Assembly (NCBI GenBank): GCA_012799425.1
Contig: JAAZLF010000008.1
Location: 1 to 11,772 of the forward strand
DNA length: 11,772 nt
Direction: 5' to 3'
Origin: Actinomycetales bacterium
GTDB taxonomy: Bacteria; Actinomycetota; Actinomycetes; Actinomycetales; Dermabacteraceae
In this document: positions 1 through 11,665 of the stretch, in pieces
How positions within the stretch are numbered: the first letter of the stretch is position 1
Layout of the letters: every line of letters begins with the position of its first letter
The notes under the pieces: generated by a model
The model's database searches: none
Seen by the model: the letters and a program-made list of their open reading frames with translations, nothing else
What the model was told of the DNA's origin: nothing
Program-made: the position numbers and the translations under genes

Positions 1-1
1 C

Positions 2-547
2 GAGCTGCCCGCCGCCCGCCGGCGCCGCCTGCTGGGGGAGTGGGGCTTCACCGACCTCGAGATGCGCGACGTCATCAACGCAGGCGCCCTGGACCTCATC
101 GAGCAGACCGTCACCGCCGGCGCCTCCGCCCAGTCCGCCCGCAAGTGGTGGATGGGCGAGCTCGCCCGTGTGGCGAAGGACCGCGACGTCGAGATCGAGG
201 CGCTGTCGATCACCCCGGCGCAGGTCGCTGAGCTGCAGGGCCTGGTCGACGGGAAGAAGATCAACGACAAGATCGCCAAGCAGGTGCTGGTGAAGGTCCT
301 CGACGGCAACGGCGACCCCGCCGCGATCGTCGAGGCCGAGGGCCTGGCCGTCGTCTCCGACGACTCCGTGCTCACCTCCGCCGTGGACCAGGCGATCGCC
401 GACAACCCCGACGTGGTCGCGAAGATCCAGGGCGGCAAGGTCCAGGCGATCGGCGCCCTGATCGGCCCGATCATGAAGGCCACCCGCGGCCAGGCCGACG
501 CCGGCCGCGTCCGCGAGATCATCATGGAGAAGCTCGGCGTCAGCTGA
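2..547 (+). CDS. gatB: Asp-tRNA(Asn)/Glu-tRNA(Gln) amidotransferase subunit B, C-terminal part
   Basis: This is the last 181 residues of GatB, cut by the left edge of the window. GatB is the subunit of the GatCAB transamidase that binds tRNA and, with ATP and ammonia from GatA, converts misacylated Glu-tRNA(Gln) or Asp-tRNA(Asn) to the amide form in the cytoplasm. The visible part is the helical cradle and the YqeY-like tail domain. The tail motif GKVQAIGALIGPIMKATRGQ, followed by a VREIIMEKLG-type end, is the family's characteristic C-terminus, and the stop falls where the family normally ends. The kinase-like catalytic core lies outside the window. The gene is followed at once by hairpins, so it is probably the last gene of its transcript (usually gatC-gatA-gatB). 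Identification is firm; nothing odd is seen in the visible part. Confidence 0.95.
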   Translation, partial: ELPAARRRRLLGEWGFTDLEMRDVINAGALDLIEQTVTAGASAQSARKWWMGELARVAKDRDVEIEALSITPAQVAELQGLVDGKKINDKIAKQVLVKVLDGNGDPAAIVEAEGLAVVSDDSVLTSAVDQAIADNPDVVAKIQGGKVQAIGALIGPIMKATRGQADAGRVREIIMEKLGVS

Positions 548-551
548 GCCC

Positions 552-574
552 GGTGCCGACCCGAGACCGGCACC
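552..574 (+). other. Small hairpin just after gatB
   Basis: A perfect 7-bp stem (GGTGCCG with CGGCACC) and a 9-base loop begin four bases after the gatB stop codon. It lies just ahead of the larger hairpin at 584-620 and may help it to stop transcription or protect the mRNA 3' end. There is no T-run. Confidence 0.4.
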
Positions 575-583
575 CGACATGCG

Positions 584-620
584 GCAGGGGCCGCCCCGGA
601 GAGATCCGGGGCGGCCCTGC
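584..620 (+). terminator. GC-rich hairpin terminator of gatB
   Basis: A stem of about 15 bp pairs GCAGGGGCCGCCCCGG (584-599) with CCGGGGCGGCCCTGC (606-620), with one bulged G and a six-base AGAGAT loop. It lies 36 bases after the gatB stop. There is no following T-run, as is common for actinobacterial terminators. Confidence 0.75.
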
Positions 621-639
621 TCATGTCGCGACCAGGTGT

Positions 640-684
640 GAGGGTCTCCACGAAGAAGGTCAACATCAGGTAAAGGATCCGAGG
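640..684 (+). promoter_or_regulatory. Possible degenerate glycine riboswitch aptamer
   Basis: The motif CGAAGAAG (651-658) is followed eight bases later by TCAGGTAAAGGA (666-677). These resemble the two most conserved strings of glycine aptamers, roughly CCGAAGaAG and TCAGGtAAAAGGA, in the right order and roughly the right spacing. A small hairpin precedes them (GTGTGAG with CTCCAC, around 637-650), as P3 does in the aptamer. The downstream gene is an AGCS symporter, a classic glycine-riboswitch target. Against it, the expected GGAGAG/CTCTC pairing is not clear and no convincing second aptamer is seen. Treat this as a hypothesis. Confidence 0.25.
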
Positions 685-699
685 GTCGGATTGTCCGAC
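685..699 (+). promoter_or_regulatory. Palindrome, possible operator, upstream of the symporter
   Basis: GTCGGATTGTCCGAC is a perfect 6-bp inverted repeat with a three-base centre. The overlapping string TTGTCCGACAG nearly fits the TNGTNNNACNA pattern bound by GntR/FadR-type regulators. TTGTCC (691-696) with a TGCAAT 16 bases later could be a weak promoter overlapping the site; a separate TAAAGT at 798-803 is another possible -10 element. No regulator gene is present nearby. The remainder of 548-904 holds no gene that I can support. Confidence 0.3.
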
Positions 700-904
700 A
701 GGTGCCTGGCGATGCAATCCGAGTGCCCAGGTCGCGCCGAGGTTCCGCCCAGCATTCCGGCAGGTCGAACCGGCCCGGGGGCCTCACTACTCCTCGGTAA
801 AGTCATTCGCCGTCCGCTGCGGCGCCTCCCTCTCCGGTGACCGGCGCCCCGCGGGCCCCGAGCCCCCGACCCGGCGGATCCCCACCGAAGGAGAACCCCC
901 TCAG

Positions 905-2599
905 ATGCCTGGAATAGACGCGGCCGTCGAGACGATCTTCGGCCCCATCGCCGCCTTCCTCAGCGCCGTCGTGTTCTACAAGGCCCCGATCTTCGGCGGC
1001 GTGCCGATCATCGTCGTCTGGCTCATGGCCGCCGCGATCTTCCTGACCGTCTGGCTGCGCTTCCAGCCGATCACCGGGCTCAAGCACTCGATCCAGGTGA
1101 TCCGGGGTCGGTACACCGCCAAGACCGACCCCGGCGAGGTCTCCAGCTTCCAGGCCCTCGCCACCGAGCTCTCCGGCACCGTCGGCCTCGGCAACATCGC
1201 CGGCGTTGCCGTCGCGATCGCGGCCGGCGGCCCCGGCGCGGCGCTCTGGATCGCGATCTTCGGCTTCTTCGCGATGAGCGTGAAGATGGCCGAGGCGACC
1301 CTCGGCGTCATGTACCGCAAGGTCAACGCCGACGGCACCACCGAGGGTGGCCCCATGTACTACCTGCGCGACGGCCTCGCGCAGATCGGCCGCAGGCGCC
1401 TGGGCCGCGTGCTCGCCGTGCTGTACGCGATCTTCACCCTCGTCGGCGTGTTCGGCGCGGGCAACCTCTTCCAGTCCAACCAGGTCGCCGCGATCGTCGC
1501 CTCCTCGACCGGCAGCGAGTTCCTCGCGGGCAACCAGTGGCTGATCGGCGCGGTCATGGCCGCGCTCACCGCGATCGTGATCCTCGGCGGCGTCACGAAG
1601 ATCGCCCGCTGGACCTCCGCGATCACCCCCGCGATGGCCGTGCTCTACGTGCTCTGCGCGCTCACCATCATCCTGGTGAACATCGAGGCGCTGCCCGCGG
1701 CGGTCGCCACGATCTTCACCAGCGCCTTCACGGCCGACGGCGTCACCGGCGGCATCATTGGCGTGGCCGTCATCGGCATCCAGCGCGCGCTGTTCTCCAA
1801 CGCCGCGGGCGTCGGCTCCGCGGCAATGGCCCACAGCGCCTCGAAGACGAAGGAGCCCGCCACCGAGGGCTTCACCGCCCTGTGGGAGCCGCTGGTCGAC
1901 TCCATCGGTGTGTGCATGCTGACCGCCATCGCGGTCGTCATCACCGGTGTCTACCAGGGCGGCGGGGAGGACGGCGTGGCGCTGACCGCGGCCGCCTTCG
2001 GCACCGTCGCGGGCTGGTTCCCCTCCCTCCTCACCGTCGCCGTCGCCCTGTTCGGCTTCTCGACCGTGCTGGCCTACGCCTACTACGGCGAGCTCAGCGC
2101 CAAGTTCCTCTTCGGCAGCTCCGTGCTGGTGCAGAACGCCTTCCGCATCGCCTGGGTGCTCGCCGTCATCGTCGGCGCCGCGATCTCGCTGGACTCCGTC
2201 ATCGCCTTCTCCGACGCGATGTTCTTCCTCATGTCGGTCCCGAACCTGCTGGGCATCTACTTCCTCGCCCGTGTGCTGCGCCTGGAGATCCTGCGCCACC
2301 GCTACCGCGTGAGCGTCGGCGCCCTCTGCGAGGTCGAGCCGGACCTCCAGGTGGGCATGGGCTCCCATGAGCCCACCGAGGAGCAGGTCGCCGCCGAGGA
2401 GCACCGCACCCTGACCGAGGAGCTGCGCCTGGCCGATCTCCACCGCCAGCTCGCCGAGGACCCCGACTTCCCCGTCCGCGCCGACCATCACGACGAGGAC
2501 CTCGCCTCGCCGATGGGGGAGACGGACTACGACGACTGGGCTCAGGATCCCGAGGGGGATGGCGACCCGCAGGCGGAGCGCAGCCCGGCCGGGGCCTGA
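905..2599 (+). CDS. Sodium:alanine/glycine symporter, AGCS family
   Basis: A 564-residue integral membrane protein that would import alanine or glycine with Na+ across the cytoplasmic membrane. It is hydrophobic with about ten or eleven membrane segments between residues 15 and 455. Family hallmarks are FQALATELSGTVGLGNIAG (82-100), GGPGAALWI (108-116), EGGPMYYL (147-154) and RALFSNAAGVGSAAMAHS (294-311) followed by TEG. The usual glutamate of the FSNEAG motif is alanine here (Ala300). The C-terminal tail, about 470-564, is soluble and very acidic, longer than in many relatives. The ATG start is supported by GAAGGAG at 887-893. The gene stands alone between two hairpins, so it is probably transcribed by itself from the 548-904 gap. 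The family assignment is firm; the substrate is inferred from family only. Confidence 0.93.
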   Translation: MPGIDAAVETIFGPIAAFLSAVVFYKAPIFGGVPIIVVWLMAAAIFLTVWLRFQPITGLKHSIQVIRGRYTAKTDPGEVSSFQALATELSGTVGLGNIAGVAVAIAAGGPGAALWIAIFGFFAMSVKMAEATLGVMYRKVNADGTTEGGPMYYLRDGLAQIGRRRLGRVLAVLYAIFTLVGVFGAGNLFQSNQVAAIVASSTGSEFLAGNQWLIGAVMAALTAIVILGGVTKIARWTSAITPAMAVLYVLCALTIILVNIEALPAAVATIFTSAFTADGVTGGIIGVAVIGIQRALFSNAAGVGSAAMAHSASKTKEPATEGFTALWEPLVDSIGVCMLTAIAVVITGVYQGGGEDGVALTAAAFGTVAGWFPSLLTVAVALFGFSTVLAYAYYGELSAKFLFGSSVLVQNAFRIAWVLAVIVGAAISLDSVIAFSDAMFFLMSVPNLLGIYFLARVLRLEILRHRYRVSVGALCEVEPDLQVGMGSHEPTEEQVAAEEHRTLTEELRLADLHRQLAEDPDFPVRADHHDEDLASPMGETDYDDWAQDPEGDGDPQAERSPAGA

Positions 2600-2621
2600 A
2601 ACCTGGCTCGCCGTGCATGAC

Positions 2622-2654
2622 AGGGGCCGTTCCGGGCGCACCGGGACGGCCCCT
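2622..2654 (+). terminator. GC-rich hairpin terminator of the symporter gene
   Basis: A 14-bp stem (AGGGGCCGTTCCGG at 2622-2635 with CCGGGACGGCCCCT at 2641-2654, one G-T pair) closes a five-base loop, 22 bases after the stop codon. It has no T-run and closely resembles the hairpin after gatB. Confidence 0.8.
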
Positions 2655-2768
2655 CGTCATGAGCACGGGTGACGGACATCTGTCCATCGCGGAGCCCCCG
2701 GGGCGGCACCTTCGCGTGCCTGTGTCCACGGCTTTTGCCCGATCCGGCGACATCGTGGCGCTTCTCAT

Positions 2769-2783
2769 CCGGACCGCGTCCGG
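2769..2783 (+). other. Short inverted repeat upstream of the siderophore operon
   Basis: CCGGAC and GTCCGG form a perfect 6-bp repeat around a three-base centre, 26 bases before the iron box. A smaller one, GGACA with TGTCC, lies at 2674-2685. Either could be a binding site or chance in GC-rich sequence; apart from these and the iron box, the gap 2655-2870 shows nothing else. Confidence 0.3.
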
Positions 2784-2809
2784 GATTGCGAACACTCCGC
2801 CTTGCGTAT

Positions 2810-2828
2810 TCAGGGTAGGCAACCCTTA
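2810..2828 (+). promoter_or_regulatory. DtxR/IdeR/DmdR-type iron box of the siderophore operon
   Basis: TCAGGGTAGGCAACCCTTA matches 14 of 19 positions of the actinobacterial iron-box consensus TTAGGTTAGGCTAACCTAA and keeps the central TAGGC and the AGG...CC arms. It ends 42 bases before the desA start, with a possible promoter overlapping it (TTGCGA at 2786-2791, TATTCA at 2807-2812, a poor fit). An iron-loaded DtxR-family repressor bound here would switch the siderophore genes off when iron is plentiful. The regulator gene is not in the window. Confidence 0.75.
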
Positions 2829-2870
2829 CTGCGCAGGTCCGGATGGCCCGCGCCCCAGGAGGTCCTCCCC

Positions 2871-4397
2871 ATGGCATCCCTCGCGACCCGCCCCGCCCCG
2901 GCCCCCGACGGGACCACAGCGGCGACGACCGGGCTGCTCACCGCCCGCACCGCCGACGCCTACCAGGACCTGCTCGGCCAGGTCACCCGCGACGTCGCCG
3001 AGCGGCTCCGCACGGTGCGCGCCCCCTCCGTCGGCCCCGATCGCCGCCACCTCGAGCGCCTCGTGGAGGGCGTGGACCTCGACGGCCCCGGCGTGGGCGA
3101 CGCGGCCGCCCTCGACGAGGCCGACTCCCTCTACGCCGCCCACGCGGTCTGGTTCCACCACCCCTCCTATCTCGCGCACCTCAACTGCCCCGTCGTGCTG
3201 CCGGCCGTCGCGGCCGAGGCGATGCTCGCGGCGATCAACACCTCCGTGGACACCTATGACCAGTCCCTGGTCGCGACCCTGATGGAGCAGCGCCTGGTGC
3301 GCTGGACCGCCGAGCGGATCGGCTTCGCCGCCGGCGACGGCGTGTTCACCTCCGGCGGCACCCAGTCCAACCTCCAGGCCCTCTATCTCGCCCGCTCCCG
3401 CGCCGAGCGCACCGCGGGGGAGGAGCGCGCCGCCCTGCTGCCGCGCCTGCGGGTCCTCGCGACCGAGGCCGCCCACTTCTCCGTGACCCGCTCCGCCCGC
3501 CTGCTCGGACTGGGGGAGGATGCCGTCCTCCCCGTCCCCGCCGATGCCGACGGCCGCATGGACGTCGCAGCGCTGCGCCAGGCGCTCGCCTCTGTCGACA
3601 CGGCCGGCGAGCTGCCCATGGCGATCGTCGCGACTGCAGGGACCACCGACCGCGGCCTCATCGACCCGCTTCCCGAGATCGCCGGCGCCGCCCGCGACCA
3701 CCATGCCTGGCTCCACGTCGACGCCGCCTACGGCGGGGGACTGCTCCTCTCCCGCACCCGCCGCCATCTCCTGGACGGCATCGAGCACGCCGACTCGGTC
3801 ACCGTCGACTACCACAAGACCTGCTTCCAGCCCGTCTCCTCGAGCGCGCTGATCGTGCGGGAGAGCGCCGACCTCGCCGCGACCGCGCACCACGCCGACT
3901 ACCTCAATCCCGCCGCGGAGGCCGCCGCGGAGGACGCGGAGCCGAACCAGGTCGACAAGTCCCTCCAGACCACCCGGCGGTTCGACGCGCTGAAGCTCTG
4001 GACCACGCTGCGGTCGCTCGGACCGGATGCGCTCGGTGACATGGTCGACGCCTGCTGCGACCTCGCCGTCGAGGTGCGGGAGCTGCTGACCGAGGACCCG
4101 GATCTGCACGTGCTCGGCACCACGGACCTCTCCACCGTCATCTTCCGCTTCCGTCCCGAGGGGCTGGACGATGCCCGCACCGATGCGCTGCAGCCCCTGA
4201 TCCGCCGGATCCTGTTCCACTCCGGCCGCGCAATGGTCGCCCGCACCACGATCGACGGCACACCCTGGCTGAAGCTCACCCTCCTGAACCCCGGTGCCAC
4301 GCTCACCGACGTCGCCGCCGTGCTCGACCTCGTCCGGGCGACCGGCCGGGGACTGCTGGCCGGCGGCCGGCTCGCCGCCGCGGAGGAGACCCGATGA
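2871..4397 (+). CDS. desA: Pyridoxal-phosphate lysine decarboxylase, DesA-like
   Basis: A 508-residue group II PLP decarboxylase. In desferrioxamine-type pathways this enzyme converts L-lysine to cadaverine, the first step. The motifs are SGGTQSN (161-167, phosphate contact), ATEAAHFSV with His202 stacking on the cofactor, HVDAAYGG with Asp284 pairing with the pyridine nitrogen, and DYHKTCFQP with Lys316 as the Schiff-base lysine. Length is normal for DesA proteins (about 480-520). The ATG is chosen because AGGAGGT lies at 2857-2863, eight bases upstream; an in-frame TTG at 2802 would put the iron box inside the gene. The stop overlaps the desB start by ATGA, so the two are translationally coupled. 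L-2,4-diaminobutyrate or other amino-acid decarboxylation is possible for this family, but the neighbours argue for lysine. Confidence 0.9.
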   Translation: MASLATRPAPAPDGTTAATTGLLTARTADAYQDLLGQVTRDVAERLRTVRAPSVGPDRRHLERLVEGVDLDGPGVGDAAALDEADSLYAAHAVWFHHPSYLAHLNCPVVLPAVAAEAMLAAINTSVDTYDQSLVATLMEQRLVRWTAERIGFAAGDGVFTSGGTQSNLQALYLARSRAERTAGEERAALLPRLRVLATEAAHFSVTRSARLLGLGEDAVLPVPADADGRMDVAALRQALASVDTAGELPMAIVATAGTTDRGLIDPLPEIAGAARDHHAWLHVDAAYGGGLLLSRTRRHLLDGIEHADSVTVDYHKTCFQPVSSSALIVRESADLAATAHHADYLNPAAEAAAEDAEPNQVDKSLQTTRRFDALKLWTTLRSLGPDALGDMVDACCDLAVEVRELLTEDPDLHVLGTTDLSTVIFRFRPEGLDDARTDALQPLIRRILFHSGRAMVARTTIDGTPWLKLTLLNPGATLTDVAAVLDLVRATGRGLLAGGRLAAAEETR

Positions 4398-5720
4398 GCG
4401 TCCCCGACCCCGCAGCACGTCCACGACCTCGTCGGCATCGGCATCGGTCCCTTCGGCCTGGGGCTCGCCGCCCTCGCCGCGCCCCTCGAGGACCTCGACG
4501 CCGTCTTCGTCGACCAGGCCGACGGCTTCTCCTGGCACCCCGGGATGATGATCGAGGGAACCACCCTGCAGGTCCCCTTCCTCGCCGACCTGGTGACCAT
4601 GGCGGACCCGACCTCTCCCTACTCGTTCCTCGCCTTCCTCAAGGCCACCGGGCGCCTCTACTCCTTCTACATCCGCGAGTCCTTCTCCCCGCTGCGCAGC
4701 GAGTACGACGCCTACTGCCGCTGGGTCGCGGAACGGCTGGAGAGCCTGCGCTGGCGCCGTCGCGCCCTCGCGATCGAGGAGGAGGGCGACCACCTGCTGG
4801 TCACCCTCGCCGTGCTCGACGCCCAGGGCGCCACCACGCGCTTCGAGCAGCTGCGCACCCGCCACGTCGCGCTCTGCCTCGGCACCGCCCCGCACCTCCC
4901 GCCCCCGCTCGAGGCGCTCGCGGGGGAGGGCGGCCCCGCCCCGGTCCTGCACAGCGCCGACTACCTCGACCGCAAGCAGGACCTGCTGGAGGCGGGCTCC
5001 GTCACCGTCGTGGGCAGCGGCCAGTCCGCCGCCGAGGTCTACCGCGACCTGCTCGCCGCCGCGGCCCCGAGCGGCACGAGGGTGGACTGGGTGACCCGCT
5101 CGGAGCGGTTCTTCCCGATGGAGTACACCAAGCTCACCCTCGAGATGACCTCCCCGGAGTACACCGACCTGTACCGGGCGCTGCCCGAGGAGGTCCGTGA
5201 CCACCTCTCCCGTCAGCAGCGGGCCCTGCACAAGGGCATCAGCGCGGACCTGATCGACGAGATCCACGAGCTGCTGTACGGCCTCACCGCCGGCGGACGC
5301 GAGCTCCCCTCGCGCCTGCTCACCGCCACCGCCGTCACCGGCGCCCGCACGGACGGCGACGAGATCGTCCTGGACCTCGCCCACTCCCTCACGGGGGAGA
5401 CTGCCGAGCACCGCACCGGCGCCGTGATCGCCGCGACCGGGTACCGCCCTCGCGACGCCGATCTCCTCGCCCCGCTCGGCGACCGGGTCCGACGGGACGC
5501 ATCGGGCCGCCTCGACGTCGCCCGCGACTACACGGTCGACGAACCGGGCCGTCTCCACGTGCTCGGCACCGAGGAGCACACCCACGGCGTGACCGCCCCG
5601 GACCTCGGCTTCGGCGCCTGGCGCGCCTCCGTGGTGCTCGCCGCCGTGCTGGGCCGCGAGCCCTACCCGATCGAGCGAGCGATCGCCTTCCAGACCTTCG
5701 GTCTGCCGGCCGCGCACTGA
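4394..5720 (+). CDS. desB: Lysine/cadaverine N-hydroxylase, DesB-like, frameshifted near the 5' end
   Basis: A flavin N-hydroxylating monooxygenase (IucD/SidA/DesB family) that uses FAD, NADPH and O2; here it would make N-hydroxycadaverine. The ATG at 4394 overlaps the desA stop and has GGAGGAG at 4382-4388, but this frame soon becomes arginine/proline-rich nonsense. The true protein continues in the next frame from about 4410: GIGIGPFGLGL (FAD site), then WHPGMMIEGTTLQVPFL, the NADPH site VVGSGQSAAE and the late ATGYRP motif. Removing one C from the CCCC run at 4408-4411 gives one uninterrupted 441-residue protein beginning MSVPDPQHVHDLVGIG. No start codon exists in the main frame until ATG 4545, which would miss the FAD site. 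The rest of the gene is intact, so the lesion is recent, a sequence error, or corrected by ribosomal frameshifting. desCD begins 32 bases later. Confidence 0.88.
4408..4411 (+). other. Frameshift site in desB (C4 run)
   Basis: The run reads GA-CCCC-GCAG. With three C's the coupled ATG at 4394 would stay in frame with the rest of desB; with four it does not. The codon before the break is CCC and a one-base forward slip gives CCG, another proline codon, so +1 slippage of proline tRNA is conceivable. Sequencing error or true mutation is simpler. Confidence 0.8.
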
Positions 5721-5752
5721 CCGCCGGCCGCCCACCGACCAGGAGAGACTTG

Positions 5753-8080
5753 ATGGACCTGACCTTCACCCCGCTGGACCCCGCCGCCCACGCCGAGCTG
5801 CTGCACGGCTGGCTCACCACCGACCGCGCCCGCTTCTGGGGCATGACCGCGCACAGTCCCGATCAGGTGCGCGCCTACCTCGACAGCGTCGACGCCTCCG
5901 CCCATGAGCAGGGATGGATCGGCGCCCGCGGCGGAGAGCCGCTCGTCTACGTCGAGACCTACGATCCCGCGCAGCTGCTTCCGGAGGGACTGCTCGCCCC
6001 AGAGCCCGGGGATCTCGGCCTGCACCTGCTCATCGCCCAGCCGACGGGCGCCCCCGAGCATGGGCTGACCGCCGCGGTGATGGGGGAGGTGGTCTCCTGG
6101 TGCCTGCACGGGCGAGGCGCCGCCCGATTGGTCGTCGAGCCCGACGAGCGCAACCGCGCCGTGCTCGCCAAGAACGCGGCGGCCGGCTTCCGGGTGCTCC
6201 GCCACGTGGAGATCCCCGACGGGGAGGGCACCAAGCGCGCCGCGCTGAGCATCTGCACCCGCGCGGACTTCGCCGCCTCGCCCCTCGGCCCCGGGACGAC
6301 CCCCACCGGCCATCTCCGCTCCGACATCGCCGACCAGGCCCACCGCCACCTGATCGCCAAGGCGCTCGCCGAGCTCTCCCACGAGCGCGTCCTCGCCCCG
6401 GAGCCCCGCGGCGACGGCGACTTCGAGCTCGCCGTCCCCGGCACCGACGTCCGCTACCGCTTCACCGCCCGGGTGCTGCCGCTCGAGCACTGGCTCCTGA
6501 ACCCCGCCTCGATCACCCGCACCGCGGGCGACGCCCCCACCCCGCTGGACGTGCAGGTCCTCGTGGCCGAGCTGCAGGACGTGCTCGGCGTGCCGGACGA
6601 TCTCCTGTCCACCTATCTCGAGGAGCTCGCCTCCACCCTCGCGGCCCGCTGCGCGACCCTCGACGCGGCCCGCCGCGGTGAGCGGCCGTCGGCCGAGGAC
6701 CTCCTGGACGCGGACCTCCCGCAGATCGAGGCGGCGATGACCGAGGGCCACCCCGGCTTCCTCGCGAACAACGGCCGCATCGGCTTCTCCCTGCCCGACT
6801 ACCGCGCCTACGCCCCCGAGCAGGGGCGGGCGACACGCCTGGAGTGGGTCGCGGTGCGGCGCGAGCACGCCCACCTCTCCCTCGGCGAGGGCCTCACCGA
6901 GGAGGGCCATGCTGCCTGGTCGCTGTCGGCGGAGGAGCGGGCCGCCTTCGCCGCTCGCCTCACGGACCGCGGGCTCGACCCCGCCGGCTACCACCTGATG
7001 CCGCTGCATCCCTGGCAGGCCGGCCACCGCCTGCCGATCACCTTCGCGCCCGACATCGCCCGCGGCGACCTCGTCCCCCTCGGCGCGGGCGGCGACGAGA
7101 TGCAGCCCCAGCAGTCCCTGCGCACCTTCTTCAACCGCACCCGCGAGGGCGCCCCCTATGTCAAGGTCGCCCTCGCCATCCAGAACATGGGCTTCCTGCG
7201 CGGCCTGTCCCCGCACTACATGTGCGACACCCCCGCCATCAACGACTGGCTCGCCGCACTCGTCGCCGGCGATGCGGAGTTCTCGGACCAGGGCTTCCGC
7301 GTGCTGCGCGAGCGCGCCGCGATCGGGTACACGGGCGACGCCTACCACCGCACCCGCACCACGAACCCCCACCGCAAGATGCTCGCCGCGCTCTGGCGCG
7401 AGAACCCGGTCGCGCAGCTCGCACCGGGGGAGCGGGCCTTCACCATGGCGGCGCTCCTGCACCGCGACCACGAGGGCCGCTCCGTCGCCGCGGCGATGCA
7501 GCGCGCCTCCAGCCTGTCGCCCGAGCAGTGGCTCGCCGGATACCTGCGCGCCTATCTCCGACCGCTGGTCCACCTGCTGCTCGCCCACGACGTGGTGGTG
7601 ATGCCCCACGGAGAGAACCTCATCCTGCGCGTGCGGGAGCAGCAGGTGATCGGCGGGTTCTACAAGGACATCGGCGAGGAGATGGCGGTGGTGGGCCGCC
7701 GACCGCTGCCGGAGGGCATGGAGCGGGTGCGGGCCGTGGTGCCGGGGGAGGAGAAGGCGCTGTCGATCTTCACCGACGTCTTCGACGGGGTGCTGCGGCA
7801 CCTGTCCGGCATCCTCGACGCCGACGGGATCCTGCCCGCCGACCGCTTCTGGCACCATGTCGCGGAGGTGCTCGACGAGTACGAGGCCGAGCACCCGGAC
7901 CTCGCCCGCGGCCTCGCGGGCGACGTGGACCTGCGCACCGAATCCTTCGCCCACTCGTGCCTGAACCGGCTGCAGCTGCGCAACACCCTGCAGATGGTGG
8001 ACCTCGGCGACCAGGCCTCCTCGCTGCTATTCGCCGGGCGGATGGACAATCCCGTCGCCCGGGTCGGCGTCCTGATCTGA
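5753..8080 (+). CDS. Fused GNAT acyltransferase and IucA/IucC siderophore synthetase (DesC-DesD)
   Basis: A 775-residue two-domain protein. Residues 1 to about 175 are a GNAT N-acyltransferase, with a motif A-like stretch near 88-115 and EPDERNRAVLAKNAAAGF (129-146) as the acyl-CoA-binding end; it would acylate N-hydroxycadaverine from succinyl-CoA or acetyl-CoA, the DesC step. Residues about 190-775 are an NRPS-independent (NIS) synthetase of the IucA/IucC family: EGHPGFLANNGRIGF (331-345), MPLHPWQ (416-422), QQSLRTFFN (453-461) and MPHGENL (617-623). This part would use ATP to join the monomers into the oligomer or macrocycle, the DesD step. In Streptomyces these are separate proteins. The ATG at 5753 is seven bases after AGGAG (5741-5745); a TTG at 5750 is too close. 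It is the last gene of the operon, with no clear terminator after it. Confidence 0.92.
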   Translation: MDLTFTPLDPAAHAELLHGWLTTDRARFWGMTAHSPDQVRAYLDSVDASAHEQGWIGARGGEPLVYVETYDPAQLLPEGLLAPEPGDLGLHLLIAQPTGAPEHGLTAAVMGEVVSWCLHGRGAARLVVEPDERNRAVLAKNAAAGFRVLRHVEIPDGEGTKRAALSICTRADFAASPLGPGTTPTGHLRSDIADQAHRHLIAKALAELSHERVLAPEPRGDGDFELAVPGTDVRYRFTARVLPLEHWLLNPASITRTAGDAPTPLDVQVLVAELQDVLGVPDDLLSTYLEELASTLAARCATLDAARRGERPSAEDLLDADLPQIEAAMTEGHPGFLANNGRIGFSLPDYRAYAPEQGRATRLEWVAVRREHAHLSLGEGLTEEGHAAWSLSAEERAAFAARLTDRGLDPAGYHLMPLHPWQAGHRLPITFAPDIARGDLVPLGAGGDEMQPQQSLRTFFNRTREGAPYVKVALAIQNMGFLRGLSPHYMCDTPAINDWLAALVAGDAEFSDQGFRVLRERAAIGYTGDAYHRTRTTNPHRKMLAALWRENPVAQLAPGERAFTMAALLHRDHEGRSVAAAMQRASSLSPEQWLAGYLRAYLRPLVHLLLAHDVVVMPHGENLILRVREQQVIGGFYKDIGEEMAVVGRRPLPEGMERVRAVVPGEEKALSIFTDVFDGVLRHLSGILDADGILPADRFWHHVAEVLDEYEAEHPDLARGLAGDVDLRTESFAHSCLNRLQLRNTLQMVDLGDQASSLLFAGRMDNPVARVGVLI

Positions 8081-8589
8081 CGAGCCACCCTCCGAGGGCA
8101 GCGAGACGTGCGCGCAGCGGCGACGACCACGTCCGTGCCCTCCGGGGAGATGAGCACCGTGTACGTGGCGGAGGGATCCGAGGGGTTGGAACCGGTGATG
8201 TACCGGGCTCCCTTCCGGACCTCCTCGGGCGTGAAGCGCTGGGAGATCGTCCCGCCGTCCTGGCTCACAGGAAGCCCCTCAGAACCGTTGAAGGAGCCCG
8301 CCACCCAGCTCGTGACCTCCTCGACGGGTGCTGTGAACGAGACGCGCACGCTCCACTCGTCCAGGTCGGAGACGGTGATGCCCTTGGAGACGGAGAGCTC
8401 CGCCTCGGGCGCGGGAATGCCGACGGCGGCCAGGGCCTCCTCGGCGGTGGGGGTGTCGTCGGTCATCGGTGTGCTCTCCTCGGGGGTGCGGGTGTTGTCG
8501 CATCCGGTGCCGACCAGCAGGAGCGTCGTCGTCCCGACGACGGCGGCGCGGAGGGCGTCCCTGCGTGGTGGCGAGATCGCGTCGGTCAT
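7660..8589 (-). CDS. Small secreted lipoprotein, reading frame with missing stop
   Basis: The N-terminus has a basic segment with two arginines (PPRRDALRA), a hydrophobic stretch (AAVVGTTTLLLVGTG) and Cys30 as the likely lipid-modified residue, so the protein should be anchored on the outer face of the membrane. The mature part has an acidic, threonine-rich linker and then a compact domain, about residues 60-157, ending near TVLISPEGTDVVVAAA. I do not recognise the family. Beyond about residue 159 (near 8113) the frame runs on through the antisense of desCD to 7660 with arginine/serine-rich composition that is not protein-like, so the real end is probably near 8110 and the stop has been lost. 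A two-base change in the GC repeat at 8110-8115 would instead end it at 8027. The ATG overlaps the stop of the WXG100 gene (ATGA), so both are coupled. Confidence 0.7.
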   Translation of the reverse strand: MTDAISPPRRDALRAAVVGTTTLLLVGTGCDNTRTPEESTPMTDDTPTAEEALAAVGIPAPEAELSVSKGITVSDLDEWSVRVSFTAPVEEVTSWVAGSFNGSEGLPVSQDGGTISQRFTPEEVRKGARYITGSNPSDPSATYTVLISPEGTDVVVAAARTSRCPRRVARQIRTPTRATGLSIRPANSSEEAWSPRSTICRVLRSCSRFRHEWAKDSVRRSTSPARPRARSGCSASYSSSTSATWCQKRSAGRIPSASRMPDRCRSTPSKTSVKIDSAFSSPGTTARTRSMPSGSGRRPTTAISSPMSL

Positions 8590-9698
8590 GGTCCAGTCGT
8601 CCGCCTCTCGGAGGTCCCGTGGAGCAGGAACTCCTTCGCCAAGCCTGCCCGATGCAGCTCCGCCAGCTGCTCGTCGGAGATCGTGGGATCGACGGGGCCG
8701 GGCAGATCAATCGTCGTGCTCTTGCTGCCGTCCCAGTTGTACTGGTCACGATAGTTCAGAGTGGTGTTCATCTCGTACCTCCACTCAGGATTGGTCGCAT
8801 CCGGTGGATACACCGTGACCTGCCCGTTCATCGAATAGTTCCCGGACCCCGTTGCGTAGTACCAGTTGTCGCTCGAGGCCGTAGTGCCGGGCCAGCCGGT
8901 CTGAACCGGGAACGTCACCGGACCATCGGCGCCCGACTGCTGTGCACGTTCCAATGCGAGCTGACCGATGTCTCGCTCGCGGGTTTCGATCTGTGACCGG
9001 ATATCCGGTTCGTCCGCGAGGAACGCCTCGAGGTCCATCTCCTTGTCCGCCCCCGAGTTTCCGAGGAAGTGCAACAGGTTCTCCGAGGCGTCGGGCCACA
9101 GCACCGACATGAGCGAAGCCATCTGCGTCGCCGCCTCATGGTTGGCCTGATCGCCGAGAGTCGGATCTTCACTGCCCCAGTCTCCGGCGCCCGCGTCGAC
9201 GGGGTGCCATTCGGGCATCCCGGGATCAGGCACGGTCGTGCCGGGGACAGGCGTTCCGAGCCCGTCAGGGAGTCCGTCGCCGAGAGTGCCCTGCGCCGGT
9301 CCGGCGTCGTTGTCGCCATCCCGACGGCCGTCCTCACGTCCGGCCTCTCGACCGGCTCTGGGCGCCGTCTCCGGCCGAGGGGCAGGGAGCGGCTGCATGA
9401 AGAGGACGGCATCGAGGGTGCCGCCTGGATCGGAAGCGAGGTCCTGCTCCTCCGCGTGTCCATCCGCGTCGTCCGCGAGACGGTCGAGCGACCGTTCGAT
9501 GGAGTCGAGCGCCGGCAGCACAGAAGAGTAGATGTGACCACGAAAGTCGTCGGCGTCCCCGCCTCTCCAGATCTCCTCCGAGCGGGCCCCGCGTGACACC
9601 GAGGTCTTGGCCTCGCCGAGTGCATCTCGGCCGGTGCGTATTGCCTGCGGGAACGTGCGCAGCGCCTCCGTGTCAGCCCCCATGAAAGTGTTCGCCAT
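8586..9698 (-). CDS. WXG100-like protein with novel C-terminal domain
   Basis: A 370-residue protein without a signal peptide. Residues 1-93 look like a WXG100/ESX helical hairpin: two helices joined by IWRGGDADDF, with the W-x-G motif at 44-46, where the family has it. Such proteins leave the cell by type VII (ESX) secretion. A disordered proline-, arginine- and aspartate-rich linker follows (about 100-180), then a helical part (185-255) and a C-terminal domain (about 275-365) with aromatic beta-type sequence and the strings NYRDQYNWDGSKST (315-328) and LHRAGLAKEF (348-357). I do not recognise that domain and see no obvious catalytic triad. The chosen ATG has GAGGGGA a few bases upstream; an upstream in-frame start at 9851 would overlap ilvD. 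The stop overlaps the lipoprotein start. An effector-type or surface role is inferred, not shown. Confidence 0.8.
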   Translation of the reverse strand: MANTFMGADTEALRTFPQAIRTGRDALGEAKTSVSRGARSEEIWRGGDADDFRGHIYSSVLPALDSIERSLDRLADDADGHAEEQDLASDPGGTLDAVLFMQPLPAPRPETAPRAGREAGREDGRRDGDNDAGPAQGTLGDGLPDGLGTPVPGTTVPDPGMPEWHPVDAGAGDWGSEDPTLGDQANHEAATQMASLMSVLWPDASENLLHFLGNSGADKEMDLEAFLADEPDIRSQIETRERDIGQLALERAQQSGADGPVTFPVQTGWPGTTASSDNWYYATGSGNYSMNGQVTVYPPDATNPEWRYEMNTTLNYRDQYNWDGSKSTTIDLPGPVDPTISDEQLAELHRAGLAKEFLLHGTSERRTTGP

Positions 9699-9755
9699 GT
9701 CATCCCCTCGTCGTGTCCTGAGAGGAGCGTGACGGGTCGTGTACGTCCTGTCCAT

Positions 9756-9769
9756 GGGGAGAGGTCCCC
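9756..9769. other. Short hairpin between the divergent genes
   Basis: GGGGA and TCCCC form a 5-bp stem with a GAGG loop in the 134-base gap between the WXG100 gene and ilvD. Two GTCCGG copies lie nearby (9769-9774 and 9784-9789). The function is unknown and chance is possible. Confidence 0.25.
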
Positions 9770-9798
9770 GTCCGGCGCCCACTGTCCGGATGGTGACA

Positions 9799-9817
9799 CC
9801 GCCATCTCGCATGGCGG
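9799..9817 (+). promoter_or_regulatory. Inverted repeat at the ilvD promoter
   Basis: CCGCCAT and ATGGCGG form a perfect 7-bp inverted repeat with a five-base centre. It ends two bases before the probable -10 element, where the -35 region and spacer would be. It could be a repressor or activator site; no known operator is recognised. Confidence 0.4.
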
Positions 9818-9819
9818 CG

Positions 9820-9825
9820 TAACAT
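9820..9825 (+). promoter_or_regulatory. Probable -10 element of a leaderless ilvD promoter
   Basis: TAACAT fits the actinobacterial TANNNT pattern. The ATG at 9833 lies seven bases downstream of its end, the distance expected if transcription starts at that ATG. There is no ribosome site upstream of either ATG (9824 or 9833), which supports a leaderless mRNA. Confidence 0.5.
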
Positions 9826-9832
9826 GACGGGC

Positions 9833-11665
9833 ATGGTTCAGCTCCGCTCACGCACCTCGACCCACGGCCGCAACATGGCAGGCGCCCGCGCGCTCTGGCG
9901 CGCGACCGGCATGAAGAGCGAGGACTTCGGCAAACCGATCATCGCGATCGCCAACTCGTACACGCAGTTCGTGCCCGGCCACGTCCACCTCAAGAACATG
10001 GGCGACCTGGTCGCGGGCGCGATCGAGAAGGCCGGCGGCGTCTCCAAGGAGTTCAACACGATCGCCGTGGACGACGGCATCGCGATGGGCCACGGCGGCA
10101 TGCTGTACTCGCTGCCCAGCCGCGACATCATCGCCGACTCGATCGAGTACATGGTCAACGCCCACACCGCCGACGCCCTGGTGTGCATCTCCAACTGCGA
10201 CAAGATCACCCCCGGCCACATGATGGCCGCGATGCGACTGAACATCCCGGTCGTCTTCGTCTCGGGTGGCCCCTCGGAGTCCGGCAAGCCGATCGAGGGC
10301 GTCACCGAGCACCGCATCGACCTGGTCGATGCGATGTCGCTGTCCGCCGATGATTCGATCACCGACGCCCAGCTCGCCGAGGTCGAGGAGAACGCCTGCC
10401 CCACCTGCGGCTCCTGCTCCGGCATGTTCACGGCGAACTCCATGAACTGCCTCACCGAGGTGCTCGGCCTGTCCCTGCCGGGCAACGGGACGACGCTCGC
10501 CACGCACGCGTTCCGCAGGGAGCTCTTCCTCGAGGCCGGGCGGAAGATCGTCGAGCTCTCCAAGCGCTACTACGAGGACGAGGACGAGTCGGTGCTGCCG
10601 CGCTCGATCGCCACCAAGGCCGCCTTCTCCAACGCCATGGCGATGGATGTGGCGATGGGCGGCTCGACTAACACCATCCTGCACATCCTCGCCGTCGCGA
10701 TCGAGGGCGAAGTCGACTTCGGCCTCGACGACATCGACCGCATCTCGCGCCTGGTGCCCACGCTGTCGAAGGTCGCTCCTAACGGCACCGCGCACGTCGA
10801 GGACGTCCACCGTGCCGGCGGGATCCCCGCGATCCTCGGCGAGCTGGACCGTGCCGGGCTGCTGGACCACAACATCCACACCGTCCACTCCCCGGACCTG
10901 GCCAGCTGGCTCGCCGAATGGGACATCCGCGGCGGCACGGCCTCGAAGAAGGCCGAGGCGCTCTTCCACGCCGCCCCCGGCGGGGTGCGCACCACCCAGG
11001 CCTTCTCCACCACGAACACCTGGGACGAGCTGGACACCGACGGCGAGAACGGCGTGGTCCGCTCCGTCCCGCACGCCTACACGAAGGACGGCGGCCTCGC
11101 TGTGCTCAAGGGCAATCTCGCTCGGGACGGCGCGGTGTTCAAGACCGCGGGCATCACCGAGGACCTCTTCCACTTCGAGGGCAACGCGGTGGTCTGCGAC
11201 TCCCAGGAGGAGGCGGTCCAGAAGATCCTCGAGAAGACGGTCAAAGACGGCGACGTCGTGGTGATCCGCTACGAGGGGCCGCAGGGCGGCCCCGGCATGC
11301 AGGAGATGCTCTACCCGACCTCCTTCCTCAAGGGTCGCGGCCTCGGCAAGACCTGCGCCCTGATCACCGACGGCCGCTTCTCGGGCGGCACCAGCGGCGT
11401 CTCCATCGGGCACATCTCCCCGGAGGCGGCCGAGGGCGGTCTCATCGGCCTCATCGAGGACGGCGACAAGATCATCATCGACGTCGACAAGCGCCTGCTC
11501 GAGCTCGACGTCCCCGAGGACGAGCTGGCACGCCGCCGCGAGCAGAAGGGCCCACTGCCGTGGCGGCCCGAGCATCGCGAGCGCAAGGTCTCCCAGGCCC
11601 TCAAGGTCTACGCGCACCTGGTGCGCTCGGCGACCTACGGCGCGACCCGGCGACCCTTGGACTGA
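9833..11665 (+). CDS. ilvD: Dihydroxyacid dehydratase
   Basis: A 610-residue IlvD of the Escherichia coli type (about 616). It removes water from 2,3-dihydroxy-3-methylbutanoate and the methylpentanoate analogue, giving the 2-keto acids for valine, leucine and isoleucine in the cytoplasm. The N-terminus [19 protein letters not shown] is typical. Asp81, Cys122, Asp123 and Lys124 (in NCDKITPG) and Cys195 (in [11 protein letters not shown]) correspond to the iron-sulfur and metal ligands of the E. coli enzyme, and [17 protein letters not shown] is the C-terminal signature with the catalytic serine. Position 49 is glycine, as in E. coli, not the extra cysteine of the plant-type [2Fe-2S] enzymes. 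I prefer ATG 9833 over 9824 because family proteins start close to QLRSRTS and the -10 element is placed for a leaderless start there. No other ilv gene is visible. Demand for Fe-S cluster iron may matter next to a siderophore locus. Confidence 0.97.

Follow-up and report, generated by a model that had tools for sequence, protein, structure and literature searches.

What has parted the start signal of desB from the reading frame of the enzyme that it should introduce, in an operon whose other genes are intact? This question is raised by contig C605 of a draft Brachybacterium genome (G000), which was analyzed over its whole length of 11,772 bases and is called the window below. The draft consists of 3,331,284 bases in 752 contigs, with a completeness of 88.67% and a contamination of 5.96%. 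The smallest of 40 sampled contigs has 1,585 bases, which hints at a length cut-off such as is found in metagenome bins. The window carries a hydroxamate-siderophore operon (desA, desB and a fused desC-D), and its Pfam-supported gene order is gatB end, symporter, desA, desB, desC-D and ilvD (Table 1). We assigned the names desA, desB and desC-D by family and operon; none of the three genes reached the cut-off of any NCBIfam model. Two minus-strand ORFs without Pfam matches were also observed: one (7660-8589) has a frame that extends into the end of desC-D, and the other (8586-9851) resembles, by eye, a WXG-type secreted protein.

Table 1. Features of the window, with the basis on which each was assigned.
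Feature	Position	Strand	Basis
gatB end	2-547		Pfam
Sodium:alanine symporter	905-2599		Pfam
Putative iron box (DtxR/IdeR-type operator), palindrome-like 19-mer ahead of desA	2810..2828	+	Likeness to the DtxR/IdeR consensus
desA, PLP-dependent decarboxylase, intact	2871..4397	+	PF00282, E 6.2e-61
Ribosome site (GGAGGAG, 4382-4388) and desB ATG (4394-4396), overlapping the desA stop	4382..4396	+	Sequence; ATG overlap also in 15/15 other desB-bearing genomes
Frame entered from ATG 4394, 268 codons, no recognized domain	4394..5200	+	Reading, profile searches
Probable stretch of the frame break	4400..4406	+	Agreement with P0001 switches frame here; one variable leader
desB body frame, lysine/ornithine N-monooxygenase, 440 codons and stop, no start codon before 4545	4398..5720	+	PF13434, E 1.4e-106; 6xbb, E 1.3e-125
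Longest part of desB that begins at an ATG in frame; family-profile match missing its FAD-site end	4545..5720	+	Profile positions 44-338 of 339
Fused desC-desD (acetyltransferase and IucA/IucC synthetase), intact	5753..8080	+	PF13523, PF04183, PF06276
ilvD	9824-11665		Pfam

The symporter-desABCD block (window 553-9823) sits between gatB and ilvD. In the genome G003, the matches to gatB and ilvD lie only 1,071 bases apart and the operon is missing, so that the block is present or absent as a unit. A desB match is absent from 21 of the 38 Brachybacterium genomes searched (own included). According to passages of a review, two Brachybacterium from cheese carry predicted siderophore clusters, which most resemble FW0622, at 37% (PMC12096840); on the strength of these passages, the operon type was already known in the genus.

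At the desA/desB junction, direct reading places the desA stop codon (TGA) at 4395-4397, where it is overlapped by the desB ATG. The first-pass annotation had described this ATG as well served by a ribosome site and had stated that its frame is wrong, the FAD-site peptide being encoded in the next frame without a start codon. Our reading and the profile matches confirm both statements. The translation from the ATG begins MSVPDPAARPRPRRHRHRS... (MSVPDPAARPRP...) and stays open until a stop at 5198-5200; searched at E 0.001, it matched nothing in Pfam or NCBIfam. The peptide GIGIGPFGLGL lies in the adjacent frame, which is open from 4398 to 5717; when its codons were listed from 4398 to 4545, no ATG, GTG or TTG was found. 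This body frame is shared with desA, a point absent from the first-pass annotation, and the two proteins are parted by the desA TGA alone. We rejected an alternative start at 4545, from which the FAD-site end of the profile is lost. A search for a second intact copy returned a single desB match in the assembly, whose completeness is such that another copy may have been missed. A misassembly junction was also rejected, a single blastn alignment to the genome G026 (window 1-8067) spanning the site.

The body frame covers PF13434 nearly whole (profile positions 1-338 of 339). Its nearest solved structures, all aligned nearly end to end, are 6xbb (E 1.3e-125), 5o8p (1.3e-110) and 7us3 (7.7e-100). 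Of these, 5o8p is the lysine 6-monooxygenase of desferrioxamine biosynthesis and 7us3 a putrescine N-hydroxylase, while 6xbb is listed as 'Monooxigenase' and is presumably a Streptomyces DesB. No NCBIfam model names the exact enzyme: the best, TIGR04439, reached 347 bits where its cut-off is 700. The name desB rests on the operon and the nearest structures. The profile and the structures thus support the body as a DesB-type siderophore N-monooxygenase, in line with the identity proposed at first pass.

The protein closest to the DesB of the window, P0001 (93% identity), is named Brachybacterium paraconglomeratum by its source, and its N-terminus is MSARTPQHVHDLVGIG. When it is compared with the window, the ATG frame agrees for M-S only, and from codon 4407 onward (T-P-Q-H-V-H-D-L-V) it is the body frame that agrees. 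Because the agreement has switched frame by codon 4407, the probable place of the break is the stretch from about 4400 to 4406. This placement hinges on a single residue (T), and the leader to which it belongs is variable. The first-pass annotation had assigned a one-base break to the CCCC run at 4408-4411; the break stands, and the favored site now lies upstream of that run. Runs of exactly four C occur 73 times in the window, 14 of them within 4394-5720.

We then asked how the junction is built in relatives. Among the 38 genomes of the genus, 17 gave a match: our own, G032 (a weak match of 42%, left out of the desB count) and 15 others. In all 15, the A of the desB ATG immediately precedes the desA stop codon, the ATG leads in frame into the FAD motif, and the frame offset between desB and desA is two, against zero in the window. 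Given that these 15 genomes show a different frame relation and an in-frame ATG, the break in the assembled sequence is more than chance. A wider genome collection yielded at least 427 relatives, of which 80 were kept (at least three of them Brachybacterium records, some matching genomes already counted); a start codon was found in frame within 400 bases upstream in 80 of 80, which is a weak test in GC-rich DNA. The N-terminal motif was present in 119 of the 120 proteins listed, out of 5,782 hits. The exception, P0010 (419 residues), starts at an internal methionine after the FAD motif; its source is JGI metagenome contigs no longer than 3,481 bases. A gene caller would choose such a start if the true one had been truncated away or lay in another frame.

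In the 119 proteins listed, the leader, measured from the start to the H/Y/R-D-(L/V/I) ahead of GxGxGP, ranges from one or two to nearly 60 residues and is often of low complexity. Since neither its length nor its sequence is kept, no conserved slip site exists in it among the relatives compared. At the place that corresponds to window 4394-4424, the DesB leader in loci L005 to L026 has from a few residues to dozens, with Ser-Ala-Ala repeats in L023 and L026.

The body of desB shows no further stops in its 440 codons. The dN/dS values of the desB body, desA and desC-D, respectively, were 0.263, 0.319 and 0.244 against G010; 0.268, 0.274 and 0.277 against G036; 0.432, 0.396 and 0.428 against G020; and 0.347, 0.245 and 0.223 against G026, where alone desB is clearly raised and whose desB is itself broken near its end. 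Therefore, an old decayed pseudogene was rejected: there are no stops, and with three of the four references the dN/dS of desB is close to the values of desA and desC-D. As the remainder of the gene has not decayed, the break should be either recent or an error; a null allele of very recent origin would show no decay either.

To what extent is the assembly prone to such errors? In our frame-break test, the outer 15 bases of each ORF were ignored and at least 36 shifted bases were needed, so that short breaks near gene ends are missed. Comparison of our genome with G026, which covers about 58 kb, part of it twice, flagged 3 of 41 gene pieces, and the reverse direction flagged 0 of 40. One flag is a G026 ORF joining desB and desC-D; the other two proved on inspection to be the boundary of two genes in locus L147 and a 44-base compensated stretch in locus L128. 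Against G003, 0 of 15 pieces were flagged each way. In a control, G003 against G026, 8 of 129 pieces were flagged one way (uninspected) and 0 of 134 the other way, which means that the test over-calls in one direction. An earlier tblastn version, which paired just 8 to 10 genes per comparison and was replaced, had given two flags between the window and L104, the desB locus of G026; the first fell at the desB/desC-D end and the second upstream of the start of the symporter. Once the flags had been inspected, the 41 pieces compared with G026 and the 15 compared with G003, some genes being in both sets, showed no further uncompensated frame break. The test speaks against a broadly error-ridden assembly and cannot decide a single base.

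The flagged G026 ORF is a second case of a one-base break. The desB of this genome, the most similar of the 15 (84%), carries an additional C relative to the window toward its end (window 5666, position 7332 of L104). Its DesB lacks a stop and its frame continues into desC-D (open from 4474 to 9744 in L104; region L104:7320-7400, window 5655-5760). The usual DesB tail, PIERRIAFQTFGLPAAH, which is complete in P0002, is still encoded in the neighboring frame. Thus, one-base breaks are found in two of the 16 desB genes of the genus, at different ends. Two breaks at opposite ends of the gene fit errors in C-rich DNA or gene loss, and would not fit a shared control site.

How, then, is the break to be explained? 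We give about even chances to a real, unprogrammed and very recent one-base lesion, either a fixed mutation or a strain variant, at the start of desB, a reading in which the assembled base is inferred to be real. Such a lesion would part the start signal at 4394 from the enzyme frame, and ribosomes starting there would produce at most 268 residues of meaningless peptide. No DesB would then be made, and the hydroxamate siderophore would presumably be lost, with desA and desC-D still intact. In favor of a lesion, the in-frame start is missing in the window alone, the stop-free body keeps a dN/dS near that of its neighbors against G010, G036 and G020 (as expected if the break is too young to have left its mark), no other break was confirmed in the sampled gene pieces, and the locus is often missing in the genus (21/38). 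On the other side, the gene is perfect but for one base and the draft is fragmented and slightly contaminated, which has the look of an error, and dN/dS is raised against G026. We regard an error of the draft assembly, with an ordinary and intact desB in the organism itself, as nearly as likely as a real lesion. The relatives are intact (15/15 in the genus, and P0001 at 93% identity), the remainder of desB is undecayed, the draft has 752 contigs and 5.96% contamination, and the separate C-run break of G026, with its tail in the neighboring frame, would fit errors in C-rich DNA. Counting against an error are the lack of further confirmed breaks in the sampled pieces and, if this is a short-read draft, the rarity of errors in runs of four. 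The weights that we give to these two readings are judgements and were not computed.

The other explanations seem far weaker. The first-pass annotation had named three causes side by side: a gene broken recently, an erroneous base and a regulated slip. The first two jointly explain the data, and the third is opposed by the in-frame ATG of all 15 other desB genomes, which need no shift. Programmed or tolerated +1 frameshifting at a proline CCC near the start, giving full-length DesB at a controlled level, could draw on the CCC codons that the ATG frame has at 4403 and 4409, and would account for the conserved remainder of desB. Two papers describe tRNA-Pro as prone to +1 shifts (PMC4519876, PMC7577736), and because of this record we keep recoding as a slim chance of a few percent. 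Relatives with the same run and a shifted remainder, which had been named as the finding that would favor frameshifting, were seen in none of the genomes examined; moreover, the leader is variable, and among 73 runs of four C in the window this one is unremarkable. It is equally improbable that the assembled base is present in all cells and that DesB is still made by a +1 slip at a CCC that follows the start by a few codons; this would be a 'saviour' frameshift of recent origin, by which siderophore output is throttled. Phase-variable switching through C-run length is more doubtful still: C runs are present and a C-run length difference occurs in the desB of G026, but the runs here are just four long, that difference lies at another place, and the relatives show no series of run lengths at this site. 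Switching tracts are usually clearly longer than four. The least credible explanation is a read-through of the desA TGA to give a DesA-DesB fusion; desA and the desB body do share one frame in the window with this TGA as the sole divider, but desB lies one frame off desA in the other 15 genomes. The desB break thus apparently has an ordinary, unprogrammed cause, and among the relatives examined it was seen in this assembly only. The literature searched gave no account of a frame break in the desB of Brachybacterium.

Ahead of desA, the 19-mer at 2810-2828 was compared with a DtxR/IdeR iron-box consensus. This consensus in its strict form gave 0 matches at up to three mismatches; a relaxed pattern gave one match, and 0 in 200 shuffles, and is circular in that it was written after the site had been seen. 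In G026, G010, G036 and G020, a desA-upstream 19-mer on the desA strand agrees with the consensus at 14-16 of 19 positions. Since it is the top match of each of the four loci, we read 2810-2828 as a putative iron box.

If the base is real, this strain keeps a siderophore operon and apparent iron control and has lost the product. It would then represent an early step of the operon loss that the patchy presence in the genus (21/38 without a desB match) suggests, and the strain might use the siderophores of its neighbors. If it is an error, it illustrates how a strain may wrongly be labeled a non-producer on account of a single base in a GC-rich draft. In either case, knowledge of translation is unchanged.

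Compared with the desA-desB-desC/D operons of other Brachybacterium (G026, G010, G036, G020 and others), the window has the same gene order and the same overlap of the desB ATG with the desA stop, but their ATG frame enters DesB and that of the window does not. Similarly, its body aligns nearly throughout with the DesB-type N-monooxygenases 6xbb, 5o8p and 7us3 and fills PF13434, whereas the window copy is without an in-frame start codon. With bacterial +1 frameshifting at proline codons, as described in the papers cited above, it has in common that CCC occurs in the ATG frame soon after the start; it differs in that the slip site is not conserved and that none of the relatives examined needs a shift. 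A further likeness is to young single-lesion null alleles of bacterial genomes, with one break, an intact remainder and absence from relatives; if the base is real, nothing was found to distinguish the window from these.
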